Positions 1 through 8,547 of a DNA stretch of 64,000 nt are shown here, piece by piece. The notes under the pieces were generated by a model, which was given only the letters and a program-made list of their open reading frames with translations, was not told where the DNA came from and did no database searches. Source of the stretch: Campylobacteraceae bacterium (lineage in GTDB: Bacteria; Campylobacterota; Campylobacteria; Campylobacterales; Sulfurospirillaceae); NCBI GenBank assembly GCA_027050775.1, contig JALUBH010000020.1:1-64000 (forward strand). The letters run 5' to 3'. Both the position numbers and the translations under genes were made by a program. The number at the start of each line of letters is the position of its first letter. Within the stretch, counting starts at the first letter, position 1.

Positions 1-796
1 CATCAAAAAGCTGTTTTCTTCCTATCAAAATATTTAATCTATTATCAAAAAGTCCGTAACTTTGCAAATAAAGCTCTTTGATATTCAAATCAATTGAACT
101 GTTTGTTGTATGGTTTTTATGTTTTCTATATAAAATCACTCTGTCATCAGTATAAAATTTCCAGTTATCAGTAAAATACCCATATTGCAAACCGACTTTT
201 GTATTTTCATAATCTCCTCTAAGACGATTTGAATTAATCGGCTGTTGACCAAGTATATATGTAAAATTTCCATTTAGATAAAAACGGATAAATGATGCTG
301 AACGGGTATTGTTTGTTTCGTTGTTTTCTTTATAGGAGTTTATTTTTTTTGGAAATGCAATGAGTGGCTTGATATTTAATTTGACAGACTTTTTTATGGT
401 TGACTTGTTGATTTCCCATGAATAATGCTTATCATTGCACTTTTTGCAAGAAAAATTTTTACAATTTTTTCGACATGGAGTTAGCATTGATAAATTATTG
501 TGTTGTATCTTTTTTTTGTTTTTATGAAAACTGTTTTGACAGTTGACAATGAAAGCATCTTTGTAATCTTTTTTTACTTTTATGAGCATTGTTTTAGTGT
601 TGTTTATAAAATCAAAAGGTCCAAGTTTTAAGACTTCATATTTTTTTTGTTTTTCAATTATTGCTTTATCTTTAAATATATTTTGAAATTTCTCTTTTTG
701 AAAAATAGGAATTTTGATCGAACTATATGCGATAATACATGTTTTAGCAAACAGTGCGGAAGCTATAAGTAAAAAAACTAACAATACTCTTTTCAT
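1..796 (-). CDS. algE: AlgE-like outer-membrane polysaccharide exporter (3' end beyond window)
   Basis: I translated this region myself; about 265 N-terminal residues are inside the window and the gene continues past position 1. It starts with a clear signal peptide (MKRVLLVFLLIASALFA, then K). Residues about 45-75 (YEVLKLGPFDF onward) resemble a SPOR-type fold. A cysteine-rich stretch follows (C-x3-C-x4-C-x2-C, about residues 120-135). From about residue 195 the sequence is beta-barrel-like, with RLRGDYENTKVGLQYGYF and LNILIGRKQLFD, the pattern expected at the start of an alginate-export (AlgE) porin. Its ATG overlaps the algG stop codon (ATGA, 793-796), so the two are translationally coupled. 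Family knowledge: AlgE passes acetylated alginate across the outer membrane. The identity rests on N-terminal sequence and operon context; the barrel itself is not visible. Confidence 0.72.
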   Translation of the reverse strand, partial: MKRVLLVFLLIASALFAKTCIIAYSSIKIPIFQKEKFQNIFKDKAIIEKQKKYEVLKLGPFDFINNTKTMLIKVKKDYKDAFIVNCQNSFHKNKKKIQHNNLSMLTPCRKNCKNFSCKKCNDKHYSWEINKSTIKKSVKLNIKPLIAFPKKINSYKENNETNNTRSASFIRFYLNGNFTYILGQQPINSNRLRGDYENTKVGLQYGYFTDNWKFYTDDRVILYRKHKNHTTNSSIDLNIKELYLQSYGLFDNRLNILIGRKQLFD

Positions 797-3420
797 TTCT
801 TGCCTTGTATATTTAAAATATTTAGGATTTGTTTAAAATTAAGTTTTTTATTCCTGTATCTATTTATCAGTGATAGATAGCGTTCAAAAAGTGGCTTGTA
901 TCTATAAATATTATTTTGCAAGTCATTTTTCAATATATCCTTAGTTTCTTTTTGAAAATATTTATTTTTAATTAAATATCTTTTACACAGCTTGTCTTTT
1001 CTCATTTTATTTAGCTTATATTGAATAAAATGGTAATATCTTATTTTGGGAAGATTTTTTTTCCTGTAAATATCCTTCATTTTTTTAAAAATATTTGGGG
1101 GCATTAGAGAAAAATATTTATTTAATATATTAAAATATTCTAAGATATCTTTTGCTTTGCTTTTTTTATATTTATATATAAATATATCCATATATGATTT
1201 AATAACTTTTTTTGAAAAATTTGAAAAATGACATGCAATTTTTCCTTTTTTATCTTTATCGTCAAAAATCTCACCCTTTTGCATTCTATTTTTAGCAATT
1301 TCAAAGGCTTCTTGAATATTTTTCTTATTTACAGGCAAAACATATTTTATTTCGCATACAGACAAGGCAGCATCCTTGTTTTGCATAATGGCTGATTCGA
1401 TAATATAGCTCAAATATTTAATAAAATTTTTGCTATTTTTATTTAAACTCAGTTCATAAAAAGCATAAGCCTCAAGAGCTTTTGCAACAAGATTTGATGC
1501 TTCTCTTTTCAACTCATTTTTTGCTAAATCATGTAGATTTAAACGCCTGTAAATCTCTGCCAAACTCAGACCACTATCGCCATTATAATATGATAAATTA
1601 GAAAAAATATCATAAAAGGTATCTCTTATCCTAAGTCTATCTATACTTATGGCATGAAACCTGTTTCCTGCTCCATAAAGTTTAAAATCGTAATTATTGT
1701 TTATAATTTCATCAATAAACAACGAAAGATTATCTCCAAATAAATTAATATCTTTTTTCTTAAAATAGTTATTATAAAATTCTATAGCGGCCCAATTTTT
1801 AACAGTAATTTGGTTAAAATAATTATTTTTTATACTATTTTTAGTAACGACACAAGAAGTAGCTTTATGATAAGGGTCTCTCCCAAAATCACGATATATA
1901 GTATCATCTATATTTTTACTCATAACCTCGATACCGTTTTTCCCATTTTTGAAAATTTTATTTTTTTTAATGAGTATATTAAGCGAGTTTCTGATAATAA
2001 TTCCATCTATTAAGTTGTATGCCGCGATATTTTTTTCTATGATATTATTGTCACTCTCTTGAAAAGATATACCCGTATAGCCGTTAGCAAAAGTTAGATT
2101 GTCATAAACAATATTATTCGAAGACATTCTATCGAGCATTATACCGTTAGAGTGATTTCTGATAGATATGTTTTGCGCGATAAATGTTTTCGTTACTCCT
2201 CTTGAAATTATCACTCCATGGGCATAATGAGCCTTGCTTAAAAGATTTCTTGCAATCAAAAGATGTTCTGAATAATCATGTGGATCAATATTATAAATTA
2301 TATTATCATGAATATAATTTCCTACAATATTTACATTTTGTGCATTTGAACTGTAAAAACCCATCATCGAATCATACATTTCATTTCCGACATAAGTACC
2401 TTCAGGTCTTTTTGTTCTTAAAAAATTTAAAACATTAGAAACATGCAGTATAGATGTAGGAAGCTGTGCAAGAGAAATCCCAAAAGTTGATACACTATTA
2501 TGAAAGCCAAGCCCTTTGAAAGTTGAATTTAAAAAGAGAGTATAAGAGTTTGAAAGTCCCAAAAAGTATGGTCTTGGTTTTTGTTTGCCTACCAACAAAA
2601 TCTCTTCTTTAGGTATTTTTTCTCTTTTTGCATAGCTTTTTGTTTTTGCATTATAGACTATAAAGCTTGCATTATTAATATAAAGATTTCCATGATACAT
2701 TATGAATATAGGCTTTGGTTTACTTTCAAGCAAAACTTTTGAATTTTGTATCACTAAAGATGCAGTTTTTGAAATATATATAGGTACTCTTATCAAAAAT
2801 CTATTTTTAGATATTTTTCTGATTAAACTTGGAAATTTTTTATAAATATCATTTAGCGAATAAATACCATTGTACAATACTATCATTCTCATTGACAAAT
2901 GATACTTTTTGTAATATTTATAATATGTAAATATATTTGGGATAGGGAGCAAAGATATACTATCGATATTTTTTACCTCTATGCCGTTGCCATAAAAATG
3001 TTTAGGAATCTTTTTAACAAGTTTTTTTGGCATTAAATTATCTATTTTAGATAAAAACTCTTTTTTATATTTTGTAAGTTTTCTTTGAGTACTTTTTGCA
3101 AAATATGGAAAGATAATAAATTTTGTATGGCGCATCGGAGTAATTTTTACAATTTTTTCATTTTTAAAACGAAAACCTACTCTTTTTAAAAAATTAAATC
3201 TGATATATGCCTCTTTTTGGGTTTTGTAACATCCTATATAAGCCTTGTCTCCAAAAAACTCTAGAGGAAGTTCTTTTAGATGGCAAGTTCTTTGCAAAAG
3301 CATATTGTCAGGATATATTGGTGTAAATAAACCCACTTCTGTTTTAATAGAGTAGCAACTATTTTTTGCTGATGCAAAATCAAAAAATATAAGTAAAGAA
3401 ATTATTAGTATTTTTCTCAT
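793..3420 (-). CDS. algG: AlgG-type mannuronan C5-epimerase with helical C-terminal extension
   Basis: An 875-residue exported protein. I chose the ATG at 3420 (MRKILIISLL, signal peptide ending FASA-K) over an in-frame TTG 12 bases upstream. Residues about 230-560 form a right-handed parallel beta-helix with many N-N-I-I/G-I repeats. The AlgG signature is intact: HDNIIYNIDPHD, with the DPHD motif at about residues 379-382, followed by HGVIISRGVT. Family knowledge: AlgG converts mannuronate to guluronate in the periplasm and is part of the secretion scaffold. Pseudomonas AlgG is about 540 residues. Here an N-terminal region with a SPOR-like segment (about 55-95) and an alpha-helical tail of about 260 residues, with TPR/Sel1-like character, are added. 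The gene overlaps alg44 by 41 bases and algE by 4. Its DNA is visibly more AT-rich than that of algD and alg8. Confidence 0.88.
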   Translation of the reverse strand: MRKILIISLLIFFDFASAKNSCYSIKTEVGLFTPIYPDNMLLQRTCHLKELPLEFFGDKAYIGCYKTQKEAYIRFNFLKRVGFRFKNEKIVKITPMRHTKFIIFPYFAKSTQRKLTKYKKEFLSKIDNLMPKKLVKKIPKHFYGNGIEVKNIDSISLLPIPNIFTYYKYYKKYHLSMRMIVLYNGIYSLNDIYKKFPSLIRKISKNRFLIRVPIYISKTASLVIQNSKVLLESKPKPIFIMYHGNLYINNASFIVYNAKTKSYAKREKIPKEEILLVGKQKPRPYFLGLSNSYTLFLNSTFKGLGFHNSVSTFGISLAQLPTSILHVSNVLNFLRTKRPEGTYVGNEMYDSMMGFYSSNAQNVNIVGNYIHDNIIYNIDPHDYSEHLLIARNLLSKAHYAHGVIISRGVTKTFIAQNISIRNHSNGIMLDRMSSNNIVYDNLTFANGYTGISFQESDNNIIEKNIAAYNLIDGIIIRNSLNILIKKNKIFKNGKNGIEVMSKNIDDTIYRDFGRDPYHKATSCVVTKNSIKNNYFNQITVKNWAAIEFYNNYFKKKDINLFGDNLSLFIDEIINNNYDFKLYGAGNRFHAISIDRLRIRDTFYDIFSNLSYYNGDSGLSLAEIYRRLNLHDLAKNELKREASNLVAKALEAYAFYELSLNKNSKNFIKYLSYIIESAIMQNKDAALSVCEIKYVLPVNKKNIQEAFEIAKNRMQKGEIFDDKDKKGKIACHFSNFSKKVIKSYMDIFIYKYKKSKAKDILEYFNILNKYFSLMPPNIFKKMKDIYRKKNLPKIRYYHFIQYKLNKMRKDKLCKRYLIKNKYFQKETKDILKNDLQNNIYRYKPLFERYLSLINRYRNKKLNFKQILNILNIQGKK

Positions 3421-4522
3421 TGATAAATCCAAGTTTATTAATAAAAGTATCCAGCTTTACATATACACTACTCCCAATAAATTTTTTATCAATTTTTTGT
3501 AACGGCATAATGATAACATCAATAAAATTTCTTGGATTTGCATAAATATTTTCAATAGGTTTGCTTTTTATAATACTTATATTTTCAGGATAAAGGACTT
3601 TGATAATTTTTCCGTAATATATATTTGAGCCAAATATTATTTTAACTATATAGCCTATTTCAATCTTTTTGATTTCTTTAGAATAAAATACTGCATGAAT
3701 ATACTGAGTTGCATTTAGATCAATTATAGACAATATTGGCTCACCGGTATTGACAAATTCACTGTTTTTTGAATAAATCTTAAATATTTTTCCATCAACT
3801 GGAGAAACTATGCGACTCACACCTCCGCCTACAAGATATGCAACGGCTATAGTTTCACTATTTGAAATATTTTGGTCAGTTTGATAGTTTTTTTGAAATT
3901 TTATAAAAGAGGGATAAGGAGAGCGTAAAGTAGTAATATTGCTATCAACATATCCATTGACGCTTTCTACGATAAATACTTTTTTATAAACAATATATGA
4001 TAAAAATATGATAATAACCGCGAGGGTTGTAAAAATAAGAAAAAGTATTAGTTTAGCTTTCTTCTTTTCAACCTCATCTATCTTTTTCTTTTTAGGATAC
4101 ATTTGAATTTTGGTAACAGCAGTTATGATATCATCTTGCGTAATAATATCACCATTTATATAAGCAGTTATGATTTGGTTAAGTATTGATATTTGCTGAG
4201 GAGTAAGATCTGTAAAGCGGCATCCTATATAATTTTCTTTTTTATATAAACACTCCATCTTAAGATTATCAATTAATGTCTCAAACTGGTCAAATTTGAA
4301 AATCATTTTGACGGTTGTATGTTTTTTAACATATTCTTCAGACATATCGATGACGGAACATCCTGTCAAAGACCAATCCCTTAGTTTATATTTTTTTCCA
4401 TCTATTTCCATCTTTGCAGGGATTTTGAATCTGGCATTTTGGCGTGTTATTTCTGCTTCATGGACAATCTGTGGAGAAAATTTTTCTTCAGTATTGTCAA
4501 TAGATTCTATTTTTTCAGGCAT
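3380..4522 (-). CDS. alg44: Alg44: PilZ c-di-GMP receptor and alginate co-polymerase
   Basis: A 380-residue protein, close to the 389 of Pseudomonas Alg44. The cytoplasmic N-terminus is a PilZ domain with both c-di-GMP binding motifs: RxxxR (RQNAR, residues 27-31) and DxSxxG (DWSLTG, residues 49-54). One membrane helix spans about residues 157-178 (KLILFLIFTTLAVIIIFLSY). The periplasmic part is HlyD/biotinyl-lipoyl-like (GYVDSNITTLRSPYPSFI; VSPVDGKIFKI). Family knowledge: Alg44 binds c-di-GMP and activates the polymerase Alg8. It lies 12 bases after alg8 and overlaps algG. Both arginines and the DxSxxG motif are kept, so regulation by c-di-GMP is expected. Confidence 0.92.
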   Translation of the reverse strand: MPEKIESIDNTEEKFSPQIVHEAEITRQNARFKIPAKMEIDGKKYKLRDWSLTGCSVIDMSEEYVKKHTTVKMIFKFDQFETLIDNLKMECLYKKENYIGCRFTDLTPQQISILNQIITAYINGDIITQDDIITAVTKIQMYPKKKKIDEVEKKKAKLILFLIFTTLAVIIIFLSYIVYKKVFIVESVNGYVDSNITTLRSPYPSFIKFQKNYQTDQNISNSETIAVAYLVGGGVSRIVSPVDGKIFKIYSKNSEFVNTGEPILSIIDLNATQYIHAVFYSKEIKKIEIGYIVKIIFGSNIYYGKIIKVLYPENISIIKSKPIENIYANPRNFIDVIIMPLQKIDKKFIGSSVYVKLDTFINKLGFINEKNTNNFFTYIF

Positions 4523-4534
4523 ACTTGTTCCTTT

Positions 4535-6058
4535 TTAGATGATAATATCAAAAAATGACCATATTTCATCAAATGTAATATTTTGGACTAAAACATTTAC
4601 AGCAATAATAAAAAATAAAAGTTTAACTATTGTTAATGTATCACCGGCAGTTTTTCTATACCATTGAATAAATCTGTCTTCTGTTCTAAGTTTTGTTTTC
4701 TGTCTTGTCCATGACTGTTTGTACAAATGATTCCAAATATATATTTTAACAAAAGAGCCGACTATTTGATTGTAATATAAAAAAAACGGCCATGAGGGCA
4801 ATATCTCTTCTCTTGAAAGCCTGTATGCATATGTCATGAGAAGCCTGCTGAAAAGTACCCACCATATATAAGCATAAAAGATTTCTATACCCCAGTTTAA
4901 AGAGCCAAACAATGCGATAAAAAGCCCATAAGGAGCGGTCCACATAGTTACCCTTTGATCTATCAGCCCATACCACGGATACCAGTTAAATGTCTTTGGA
5001 GAAAGCTTAAGTGCTCTTGTGTTGGTTCTGTATTGATTACCAAACCATCTGTGCATTAAAGCAATGGAGCCTTTAAAATAGTTTCTGTCAGGGATTTCTT
5101 CAACTGTATAAACAACCACATCAGGGATATAAAGCATATCCCATCCTTCCTTGACCACATCAAACCAACTTGACTTGTCATCACCTGTTAAAAATTTAAA
5201 CTTACCGAGTATGGGATGATTTACATGATCATTTTGTACAGTTTCAATAAAGTCTTTTGAGGCAACTATATTTGCTCTTATCATAGACATTCTTCCGGTA
5301 AGTGTTAAAACACGATTGGAAAGAGACATAGAACTCATAGAGATATTACGCTGAGCAAAACGGAGTTTATACCATTGTCTATATACATTGTGAGGAAAGT
5401 CATCTCCGGCTAAGATAGCATCCTCGTCAGTTGTAAGTGCTCCAAGATTTTCATTCATACCAAAAAGTCTTGCGCATTTTCTTATCAAGTCCTCTCTAAG
5501 TATAGAGTCTCCGTCTATAACGGCAACAACACTTTTTTCCAAATTAATACTGGAAGCGTTGGCTACAACTCTAAATCCTATGGAAAGACCGTCTCTTTTT
5601 CCTGTACCTTTTATCCTTGAAATAGTAAGGCGAACACGAGGCGGCGGTTTGTGCTGTAAAAAAATTTTTCTAATCAACCTCTCTTCTGACATTTCGACAA
5701 TGGAAGCAATAATCGTTACATTATACCCACATCTAATCGCTTCTTCGATAGCAGCCCTGTAAACTCTGATGGTAACATCCGTACCGATACGAAATGTCGT
5801 AAGAAGTAAAAAAACGTGTTCAGGGTCTATTTCATCTTTGTGGGACTCCTCTATTTTTCTTATTTTTTTAAAAACAACCTTTTTATATATTGTAGCTCTG
5901 ATAACATTTATAAAAAACCAACTGTATCTCCATATTCCAACTAGTCCAAGTACAAATATAAGCTTTTTTTGATAAGGGTCAAAATATATTGAAGGCAGAG
6001 AAAATCCCATTGCTGTCAAAGCTAAGGTGTATATAAGAAAAAACCAAAAGTCTACCAT
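4535..6058 (-). CDS. alg8: Alg8: alginate (mannuronan) polymerase, GT2 family
   Basis: A 507-residue membrane glycosyltransferase (Pseudomonas Alg8 is 494). Two N-terminal membrane helices (residues about 5-50) precede a GT2 catalytic domain with LLTTFRIGTDV, the nucleotide-sugar site VAVIDGDSIL (DGD), LTTDEDAI, the LTGDDKSS acid motif, and MHRWFGNQYRT in the position of the processive QxxRW element. Several membrane helices follow. Family knowledge: it polymerises GDP-mannuronate at the inner membrane and needs Alg44. The start overlaps the algD stop by 7 bases, which indicates translational coupling. Processive GT2 enzymes are similar across polysaccharides, but the flanking genes make alginate the clear reading. 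Confidence 0.92.
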   Translation of the reverse strand: MVDFWFFLIYTLALTAMGFSLPSIYFDPYQKKLIFVLGLVGIWRYSWFFINVIRATIYKKVVFKKIRKIEESHKDEIDPEHVFLLLTTFRIGTDVTIRVYRAAIEEAIRCGYNVTIIASIVEMSEERLIRKIFLQHKPPPRVRLTISRIKGTGKRDGLSIGFRVVANASSINLEKSVVAVIDGDSILREDLIRKCARLFGMNENLGALTTDEDAILAGDDFPHNVYRQWYKLRFAQRNISMSSMSLSNRVLTLTGRMSMIRANIVASKDFIETVQNDHVNHPILGKFKFLTGDDKSSWFDVVKEGWDMLYIPDVVVYTVEEIPDRNYFKGSIALMHRWFGNQYRTNTRALKLSPKTFNWYPWYGLIDQRVTMWTAPYGLFIALFGSLNWGIEIFYAYIWWVLFSRLLMTYAYRLSREEILPSWPFFLYYNQIVGSFVKIYIWNHLYKQSWTRQKTKLRTEDRFIQWYRKTAGDTLTIVKLLFFIIAVNVLVQNITFDEIWSFFDIII

Positions 6059-7365
6059 GCTATCCCTATGTAGTTATCATGCGATATATCGGAATTGATA
6101 CGCATTAAGTCTATAAAAGTTTTATCTTTATATGACAAAAAGTCAATATTTTTAAATTTGTCATCACTGTTTCCGATGATTAATATTTCACTATTTTCAA
6201 TAACCCCGTTTAAATCATTTTTCAATCTTACATTGATATGGGGAAGCTCATTTTCAAGTAAAAGTTTATTGGCTCCTTTTTCTTTAGAAAGTGATATATT
6301 TTTGTCATATATTTTGACTTCATATCCTTTTCCTATGAGGATTTCGGCGAGCTCCAAAACGGGAGATTCTCTCAAGTCATCTGTATCTGCTTTGAAGCTA
6401 ATCCCCAAAAGCCCTATCTTTCTTTTTTTGAGAGGCTTTATAAAATGATAAAAAACTCTCTCGATTTGATATCGGTTGCTTGGTATTAAAGAATTTAGAA
6501 GTTGTGTATTTTCATCCAATGATTTTGCTTTGTAGGTTATGGCTTTTACATCTTTTGGAAGGCATGACCCGCCAAAAGCAAACCCCGGCTTTAAATAGTA
6601 TGGTGAAATATTAAGTTTTCTGTCCGTACAGAAAATATCCATAACCTTGCGGGCATCAATATCAACTCTTTTACATATCAAGCCAATCTCATTGGCAAAT
6701 GTAACTTTTACCGCGTGCCAAGAATTGTCCGCATATTTTATCATTTCGGCTACTTCAATATCTGTTTCAAAATATGGAGCTTTTAAAAAAGCATAAAGCT
6801 CTTTAAAAACTGATGCGCTTTTTTCATCATCAGTTCCTACGACGGTTTTGGGAGGATTGTAGAAATCATATATTGCAGAACTTTCACGTAAAAATTCCGG
6901 ATTTGAAACATATCCGAAATCTATACCTTCTTTTTTGCCTGAAACTTCTTCTATAACAGGAATGACAACATTTTTGCCGGTTCCGGGAAGGACTGTGCTT
7001 CGCATCGAAACTATATGAAAAGCATCTTTTTGTTTTATTTTTTCTCCTATAGCTTTTGCAGCTTCTTTTATATATGTTAAATCAATATCGCCGTTTGATT
7101 TTGAAGGAGTTCCAACCGAAATGATAGTAACATCACTGTTATTAATGGCTTCTTTTAAATCAGTTGTAGCTCTGAGTCTATTTTCTTTTACATTTTTTGA
7201 TATATATTCATCCAAATCTTTTTCAACAATAGGAGCCTTTCCATCATTTATCAAATCAACTTTTACTCTATCTATATCCATTCCTATTATATTATGCCCT
7301 TCCTCTGCAAAACAAGCACAACAAACCGCACCTACATATCCTAATCCGACCATAGAAATATTCAC
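6052..7365 (-). CDS. algD: GDP-mannose 6-dehydrogenase AlgD
   Basis: A 437-residue enzyme (Pseudomonas AlgD is 436) that oxidises GDP-mannose to GDP-mannuronate, the committed step of alginate synthesis. A longer open frame extends upstream to 7494. I place the start at GTG 7365 (VNISMVGLGYVGAVC) because the Rossmann motif GLGYVG must sit at the N-terminus, an AAAGGA sits just before it, and the GTG is one base past the lyase stop. The UDP-glucose/GDP-mannose dehydrogenase signatures are present: PEFLRESSA, the middle helix, and the catalytic cysteine in GFAFGGSCLPKDVKAI. It could in principle be a UDP-sugar dehydrogenase, but the length and context favour GDP-mannose. Confidence 0.9.
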   Translation of the reverse strand: MNISMVGLGYVGAVCCACFAEEGHNIIGMDIDRVKVDLINDGKAPIVEKDLDEYISKNVKENRLRATTDLKEAINNSDVTIISVGTPSKSNGDIDLTYIKEAAKAIGEKIKQKDAFHIVSMRSTVLPGTGKNVVIPVIEEVSGKKEGIDFGYVSNPEFLRESSAIYDFYNPPKTVVGTDDEKSASVFKELYAFLKAPYFETDIEVAEMIKYADNSWHAVKVTFANEIGLICKRVDIDARKVMDIFCTDRKLNISPYYLKPGFAFGGSCLPKDVKAITYKAKSLDENTQLLNSLIPSNRYQIERVFYHFIKPLKKRKIGLLGISFKADTDDLRESPVLELAEILIGKGYEVKIYDKNISLSKEKGANKLLLENELPHINVRLKNDLNGVIENSEILIIGNSDDKFKNIDFLSYKDKTFIDLMRINSDISHDNYIGIAW

Positions 7366-7366
7366 C

Positions 7367-8068
7367 TCAATCCTTTTGTATAAGTTTGTCAAACAATACT
7401 TTTGCGCAACCGTCATCTTGCAAATAGACACCAGCTTTAAAGTAATTATAATATCTACTCCAATACGAAATATCAAAATTATACTTTTTAGCATTATCGA
7501 CTATTATGTTTAGCTTATTAGCTTTTACTATAATTTTTATATCAAAAAAATCTTTTGGCATCAATCCTAAATCTACTTTTTCATAGCTTTGCTTGTAAGC
7601 ATTGGGGCTTTTTCTTATGACTGCCCAAATATGATTTTTAAAATTATGAAGTTCTTTCATCCAAACTATTCTAAGCAAAGGCTTATTGATAGAGTTTTTA
7701 AGATTAGAGTCAGCATGGATTTGTAAAAATGTAAACTCCCTTTTAGCGTTAAGAGGGAAAAGCTTTACTTTTGCATACAAGCTGATACTTTTTTTTGTAT
7801 CCACTCTCCACTCTTTTTTCATGCGAAGTTCACTTCTATGTTTCTTACCACACATAAAAAATACTATATACTTACTATCTTGCAAATAAAAATATTTATT
7901 GAAATAGTCTGCAAAATTACCATATTTTACACTATAAAGCGGATCAAAGCTACTCTTTGGAGCTTGAAGCTTTGATATATCTAAGATATTTTGAAATTTT
8001 TCTAAAGAATATGGTGTATCTTGAGCAGAAAGAAGTGTTGCAAAAATAAAAAATACAAGTTGCTTCAT
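7367..8068 (-). CDS. Periplasmic PL7-family alginate lyase
   Basis: A 233-residue protein with a signal peptide (MKQLVFFIFATLLSA, then Q). It carries the three hallmark motifs of polysaccharide lyase family 7: RSELR (residues 78-82), QIH (116-118) and YFKAGVYLQ (209-217). These supply the expected Arg, Gln, His and Tyr active-site residues on a beta-jelly-roll. Family knowledge: PL7 enzymes cleave alginate by beta-elimination. In Pseudomonas and Azotobacter operons the periplasmic lyase is AlgL of the unrelated PL5 family, so this is probably a substitute doing clean-up or length control. It is the first gene of the alginate operon, with a -10 box just upstream and an AGG ribosome site. Substrate preference (M, G or mixed blocks) cannot be read from the sequence. 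Confidence 0.87.
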   Translation of the reverse strand: MKQLVFFIFATLLSAQDTPYSLEKFQNILDISKLQAPKSSFDPLYSVKYGNFADYFNKYFYLQDSKYIVFFMCGKKHRSELRMKKEWRVDTKKSISLYAKVKLFPLNAKREFTFLQIHADSNLKNSINKPLLRIVWMKELHNFKNHIWAVIRKSPNAYKQSYEKVDLGLMPKDFFDIKIIVKANKLNIIVDNAKKYNFDISYWSRYYNYFKAGVYLQDDGCAKVLFDKLIQKD

Positions 8069-8206: not shown

Positions 8207-8234
8207 TGTAGAGAGATTTTTAAATCTCTCTACA
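8207..8234. terminator. Perfect 13-bp inverted repeat between atpE and tRNA-Leu
   Basis: TGTAGAGAGATTT, two bases, then AAATCTCTCTACA. It lies just after the atpE stop, where a terminator or RNA-processing hairpin is expected. On the atpE strand the hairpin is not followed by a long U run, so termination is likely but not certain. Confidence 0.5.
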
Positions 8235-8241
8235 AGTAAAA

Positions 8242-8547
8242 TTATCCTAAGAAAGGGTTTGCATATAGTGCTATCAAAGCGATAACAAGTGCATAGATAA
8301 CTTGTGCTTCGATCATCGCTAGAGCGATAAACATAGTTGTCATCAATTTTCCACCAAGACCCGGGTTTCTTGCAGTACCTGCTATAGTTGCAGCTGCAGT
8401 ATGTCCCATGCCGATAGCTCCACCAAGAGCAGCAAGACCAAGACCTAGTCCAGCAGCAACAACAGAGTATGCTTGAATCATACTATCGCCTTCTCCTGCA
8501 AATGCGAATCCTGCAAATGCTACCAATAAAAATACAATCTTCTTCAT
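8242..8547 (-). CDS. atpE: F0F1 ATP synthase subunit c
   Basis: A 101-residue hydrophobic protein: a signal-like first segment (MKKIVFLLVAFAGFAFA) followed by the two-helix hairpin of the rotor ring. The first helix is glycine/alanine rich (AAGLGLGLAALGGAIGMGHTAA), followed by the polar loop ARNPGLGGK. The second helix has the proton-carrying carboxylate in ALAMIEAQVIYALVIALIALY (the glutamate of MIEAQ). Family knowledge: this oligomeric ring couples proton (or sodium) flow to ATP synthesis. It stands alone, away from other ATP synthase genes, as in other Campylobacterota. The SD is AGGAG. A -10-like TAGAAT about 100 bases upstream implies a fairly long 5' UTR. Confidence 0.96.
   Translation of the reverse strand: MKKIVFLLVAFAGFAFAGEGDSMIQAYSVVAAGLGLGLAALGGAIGMGHTAAATIAGTARNPGLGGKLMTTMFIALAMIEAQVIYALVIALIALYANPFLG

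Follow-up and report, generated by a model that had tools for sequence, protein, structure and literature searches.

A predicted alginate-type operon with a PL7 lyase at a contig end in a Campylobacterota genome

The demonstrated bacterial producers of alginate belong to Pseudomonas and Azotobacter (PMC3815931). An earlier note on the DNA analysed here considered characterised synthesis to be confined to these two genera, which agrees with that source, but operons had already been predicted in deep-sea bacteria (PMC7112194, in its passages on the subject), and putative ones are present on plasmids of Rhizobium and marine alphaproteobacteria. In the sections of that 2020 survey bearing on operon distribution, 64 alginate operons are reported from 1733 genomes, some of them ‘atypical’, from deep-sea dwelling bacteria and missing either genes for export or some components of the acetylation machinery (PMC7112194, S5 Fig iii). 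From the degradative side, the PL7 lyase NitAly of Nitratiruptor sp. SB155-2 (Inoue 2016, cited in PMC9181867 and PMC6165035) is described as preferring polyM, with optima at pH 6 and 70 °C (PMC6165035, PMC9181867). The passages of these two reviews devoted to NitAly treat it as a degradative enzyme and leave its operon context unmentioned.

The window, the whole stretch of 64,000 nucleotides analysed here, starts at base 1 of a contig of 276,608 bases (G000:C20) in a genome of 2.19 Mb, position 1 being a true contig end. The tightly packed operon of lyase, algD, alg8, alg44, algG and algE described in the earlier note was recovered, with all six genes on the minus strand within 1..8068, transcribed from 8068 to 1 in that order (algE partial) and separated successively, from lyase to algE, by +1, -7, +12, -53 and -4 bases. 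All of the motifs claimed for it were likewise present: the catalytic Cys of AlgD, DGD and GDD in Alg8, RxxxR and DxSxxG in the PilZ domain and DPHD in AlgG. The features are the following.

8207..8234, minus strand: terminator-like hairpin between an atpE-like gene and the operon
7367..8068, minus strand: PL7 alginate lyase, 233 aa
6052..7365, minus strand: algD, GDP-mannose 6-dehydrogenase, 437 aa, GTG start
4535..6058, minus strand: alg8, GT2 mannuronan synthase catalytic subunit, 507 aa
3380..4522, minus strand: alg44, 380 aa, PilZ domain, membrane span and HlyD-type periplasmic domain
793..3432, minus strand: algG, mannuronan C5-epimerase, 879 aa, ORF start TTG 3432
2..796, minus strand: algE, exporter of alginate in the outer membrane, cut after 265 codons by the end of the contig
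500..739, minus strand: SPOR-like domain at the AlgE N-terminus

The algD start is most likely the GTG at 7365, in line with homologues, and not the upstream ATG at 7494 within the lyase gene. The atpE-like gene upstream of the operon (8242-8547) lies on the same strand, and the intervening hairpin, which has a stem of 12 pairs with a T-containing tail behind it, is weak evidence alone (1 found vs 0.5 expected). All operon genes but the lyase correspond to genes of the Pseudomonas alginate operon, and in tblastn searches algD, alg8, alg44, algE, algG, algK and algA each fell on the matching gene of a Pseudomonas alg operon. A record titled ‘Pseudomonas phage Y5’ and marked ‘UNVERIFIED’ (OQ572407.1, L041) holds a Pseudomonas alginate operon running from algD to algA, which makes the record, at least in part, bacterial chromosome.

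Among sampled Campylobacteria genomes, AlgG was detected in 5 of 298. Alg8 was detected in 7 of 397, with G356 as an outlier among the seven. At the outlier locus (L037, G356:C41, 7342-11420), an Alg8-like glycosyltransferase (33% identity) is fused to a C-terminal beta-helix-type domain of the pectate-lyase/epimerase kind. Next to it are encoded a protein with PilZ and HlyD domains and a second glycosyltransferase, BcsA-like and with PilZ, and the locus may specify the synthase of another uronan or EPS. Five other Campylobacteria genomes, with presumed hydrothermal-vent bacteria among these relatives, have the operon complete (lyase, D, 8, 44, G, E, K), in these gene orders:

G004 and G040: algA-lyase-D-8-44-G-E-K
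G036 and G053: D-8-44-G-E-K-lyase, with algA upstream
G381: lyase-D-8-44-G-E-K

The search for algK, algX, algJ, algI and algA beyond the contig end, proposed in the earlier note, was carried out in relatives, where algK was present and algA linked in four, and AlgX/AlgJ and AlgI were absent. Genes for an AAA ATPase, a Ser/Thr kinase with WD40 repeats and a PP2C phosphatase lie on the same strand between algA and algD in G036 (L038 3436-8978; domains checked in this genome) and G053 (L039 3269-8868), and phospho-regulation of alginate synthesis is a possible role for them. Two named MAG contigs encode AlgG proteins 83-87% identical to that of the window, and closely similar genes are found in three assemblies (window, L015 and L016). 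L015 (JALUWO010000225.1), from a MAG titled Candidatus Gracilibacteria, has an AlgG 87% and an Alg8 94% identical to those of the window, and this contig is probably misbinned Campylobacterota DNA.

The lyase of the operon is a PL7 enzyme (PF08787, E 1.5e-29), unlike the PL5 AlgL of Pseudomonas, and its nearest solved relatives are the alginate lyases 7w13 and 7c8g (E about 1e-23). It has a hydrophobic N-terminal leader and the motifs RSELR, QIH and YFKAGVY, and its Cys 73 and 221 align with the conserved Cys 80 and 232 of the homologue in a sister operon, L013, which is probably from Nitratiruptor; the motifs are conserved between the two lyases as well. Cys 80 and Cys 232 are also, as we take it, the corresponding residues of NitAly, and both are carried by the lyase of G036. 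Genome G036 is very probably that of Nitratiruptor sp. SB155-2, in which case the gene for NitAly sits in an operon for alginate synthesis; the L013 lyase itself appears to be the biochemically characterised NitAly. An alginate-type operon in this lineage is not entirely unheralded, then, with ‘atypical’ deep-sea operons listed in 2020 (PMC7112194, in the passages concerned) and one operon's lyase apparently NitAly; as far as those passages describe it, the ‘atypical’ set may include the Nitratiruptor operon.

AlgG matched the solved AlgG 4nk6 over the beta-helix (7.1e-43) and scored 166 bits against NF038177, under the 700-bit equivalog cut-off of that model. Its beta-helix core spans residues 183-554 of 879 aa and is flanked by N- and C-terminal extensions, the latter, of roughly 320 residues, giving no family match; a SPOR-like pattern at the N-terminus was seen by eye only. 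The product might be plain polymannuronate, with an AlgG that is structural or inactive as an epimerase. This divergence and the large extensions would suit such a polymer, as would the polyM preference described for the related NitAly (PMC6165035, in its passage on the enzyme) and the loss of intact polymer in Pseudomonas AlgG mutants (PMC3815931), which indicates that AlgG has a structural role too, but the DPHD motif and the ISR-region arginine are invariant among the aligned relatives, and we consider plain polymannuronate unlikely.

AlgD matched the Pseudomonas GDP-mannose 6-dehydrogenase 1mfz with 493 bits (5.8e-147), the nearest UDP-glucose enzyme reaching 249 bits, and in a tree it joined the GDP-mannose dehydrogenases (GMDs) apart from UDP-glucose-type dehydrogenases (100/100), the latter represented by three proteins of the UDP-glucose/GDP-mannose dehydrogenase family that are encoded on plasmids and were taken to be UGDs. 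It keeps a GMD segment missing from these three proteins, as well as N252/Y256/Y257. An initial tree, in which the outgroups were Ugd and WecC of E. coli, had too long branches, was unresolved and was replaced by the one with nearer dehydrogenases. Alg8 (PF13641, 6.6e-32; GTGKRDG, DGD, TGDDKSSWF, RWFGN) is 43.5% identical to a Pseudomonas Alg8 and was placed with Pseudomonas and Rhizobium Alg8, split from BcsA, PgaC, IcaA and NodC at 100/100; within the Alg8 group, eight Campylobacteria sequences formed one clade (100/100), and the GTGKRDG motif and motifs of the TGDDKSSWF and RWFGN types are common to them, Pseudomonas and Rhizobium. The earlier note had said that placement of Alg8 and AlgD with non-alginate systems would speak against its reading; both fall with alginate enzymes (100/100). 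The Alg8 profile gave no matches among PDB sequences, and an AlphaFold model built from seven sequences was too poor for use (pLDDT 44).

An algA homologue in the window's genome (G000:C28:75860-77254, 54% identity) is unlinked to the operon. It is the sole one found there and, within L040 5861-8875, adjoins by eye a GDP-mannose 4,6-dehydratase-like gene, so the GDP-mannose supply may be common to another glycan pathway. That alginate-like parts make a different uronic-acid polymer, for instance a glucuronan, would be compatible with the AlgG score under its equivalog cut-off and with the fact that an Alg8-like glycosyltransferase alone is not diagnostic, the outlier locus L037 having one with no AlgD or AlgG seen alongside. 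Such a polymer is nonetheless improbable given an AlgD that by score and tree is a GDP-mannose and not a UDP-glucose dehydrogenase, the algA linkage in four relatives and the genes for a mannuronan epimerase and a PL7 lyase that accompany the core.

Alg44 combines PilZ (PF07238; RQNAR, DWSLTG) and HlyD (PF13437) domains, and the top matches of its family profile are the Alg44 PilZ structures 4rt1/4rt0/4xrn (4.2e-9). The c-di-GMP gating proposed in the earlier note is supported by this PilZ match and by the 16-35 GGDEF matches per genome, and would follow established alginate biology.

The truncated AlgE (265 codons) was identified through an 89% identical full-length copy in L015, whose barrel matches PF13372 at 7.1e-18. 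PF13372 was found in full-length AlgE relatives and was silent when searched in the window's own genome alone, which is uninformative given the truncation of algE; a KCTD_C match on AlgE did not reach the cut-off and was discarded. An AlphaFold2 model of the N-terminal domain of AlgE, built on an alignment of 12 copies, had a pLDDT of 84; its best PDB fold match was the CwlC SPOR domain 1x60 (probability 0.98, TM 0.58, but E 0.07), and Pfam SPOR was detected in 5 of 12 AlgE relatives (best E 0.00035). The AlgE proteins of G036 and G053 carry two copies of this SPOR-like domain, and a similar domain is found at the C-terminus of Alg44 in G004 and G040. These domains may stand in for AlgX. Neither the rest of algE nor algK was found anywhere in the window's assembly. 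Their place is at the contig end, which makes this an assembly gap and not evidence of loss, so that the completeness of the operon in this strain rests on relatives, in which algK is present (its profile matches include AlgK 3e4b and 7ula among Sel1/TPR proteins).

The GC content of the operon, 0.295, is lower than that of every 2 kb block in the remainder of the window, whose overall value is 0.337; together with the patchy distribution this weakly hints at acquisition. A degenerating or silent remnant cluster is improbable, for while the patchy distribution, this low GC and the distal genes missing from the assembly would fit one, every reading frame is open, the genes are tightly packed, catalytic residues persist across 38-70% identity, closely similar genes recur in the three assemblies (window, L015, L016) and the gap sits at a contig end.

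Searches of the six operon-bearing genomes found neither AlgX/AlgJ (PF16822) nor AlgI (MBOAT), both families being positive on two control plasmids (Rhizobium, Loktanella), nor the PL5 lyase AlgL, positive in a Pseudomonas record and a Rhizobium plasmid; no AlgF-like gene was seen within the complete operons. PF16822 had first been searched in the window's genome alone, where it was silent with no suitable control, and the search was repeated with controls. In P. aeruginosa AlgX is reported to be essential, whereas the polymer is still produced without AlgI, AlgJ or AlgF (PMC3815931). The absence here of an otherwise essential protein is thus a real mechanistic oddity, and the absence of the acetylation genes predicts a product that is not O-acetylated.

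Taken together, the system very likely makes mannuronan or alginate, as far as its genes allow prediction. The linked core, including a lyase of a family acting on alginate, counts for alginate, and an AlgG below its equivalog cut-off and the absence of AlgX count against it. We describe the locus as a predicted synthase of non-acetylated mannuronan/alginate, gated by c-di-GMP, in which a PL7 lyase substitutes for AlgL. GDP-mannose from the unlinked algA homologue (G000:C28) would be oxidised to GDP-mannuronate by AlgD and polymerised across the inner membrane by Alg8 once c-di-GMP binds the PilZ domain of Alg44. In the periplasm, AlgG would epimerise part of the M residues to G, and the chain would be exported by AlgK and AlgE, with a periplasmic PL7 lyase clearing or trimming stranded polymer in place of PL5 AlgL. 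Without AlgX, AlgI, AlgJ and AlgF the product would not be O-acetylated, so that all residues would stay open to AlgG, and the scaffold role of AlgX would either be dispensable or fall to AlgE, with its SPOR-like domain, and to the enlarged AlgG. More tentatively, and with doubts of our own, we propose a minimal alginate machine without AlgX and acetylation, in which the AlgX scaffold is replaced by SPOR-like domains, of peptidoglycan-binding type, on AlgE (possibly also on AlgG and, in one genus, Alg44), PL7 replaces AlgL and the product is a Ca-gelling unacetylated alginate of hot-vent chemolithoautotrophs.

If the predicted synthase is real, bacterial alginate synthesis reaches a distant phylum, far from the two known producer genera, in a form that would reveal AlgX, acetylation and PL5 AlgL as dispensable parts and offer a natural test of the disputed role of AlgX. 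It would also be a source of heat-stable alginate enzymes and would give a biosynthetic meaning to the vent PL7 lyases, hitherto reviewed as tools for degrading algal alginate.

Compared with the Pseudomonas/Azotobacter operon (algD-8-44-K-E-G-X-L-I-J-F-A), the Campylobacteria operons are without algX, algI and algJ, with no algF seen, and have a PL7 in place of a PL5 lyase. They further differ in that algG precedes algE and algK, algA is unlinked in the window's genome, AlgE bears a SPOR-like domain and the AlgG of the window has 879 aa. Alphaproteobacterial plasmid clusters (Rhizobium, Loktanella, Salipiger, Jannaschia) also have AlgD, Alg8 and AlgG-like beta-helix proteins, but, unlike the operon in the window, those of Rhizobium and Loktanella lie on plasmids that code for proteins of the AlgX/J and MBOAT families, with PL5 lyases in addition on the Rhizobium plasmid. 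Putative alginate-type clusters were seen on Rhizobium and marine alphaproteobacterial plasmids (L042, L043, L044, L052), some with MBOAT and AlgX/J-like genes. The ‘atypical’ operons resemble that of the window in being predicted alginate operons without parts of the acetylation machinery in deep-sea hosts, as the survey describes them in the relevant passages (PMC7112194). With Pseudomonas and Azotobacter, the window and its relatives share AlgD, Alg8, Alg44, AlgG, AlgE, AlgK and AlgA, and the order algD-alg8-alg44 is the same.
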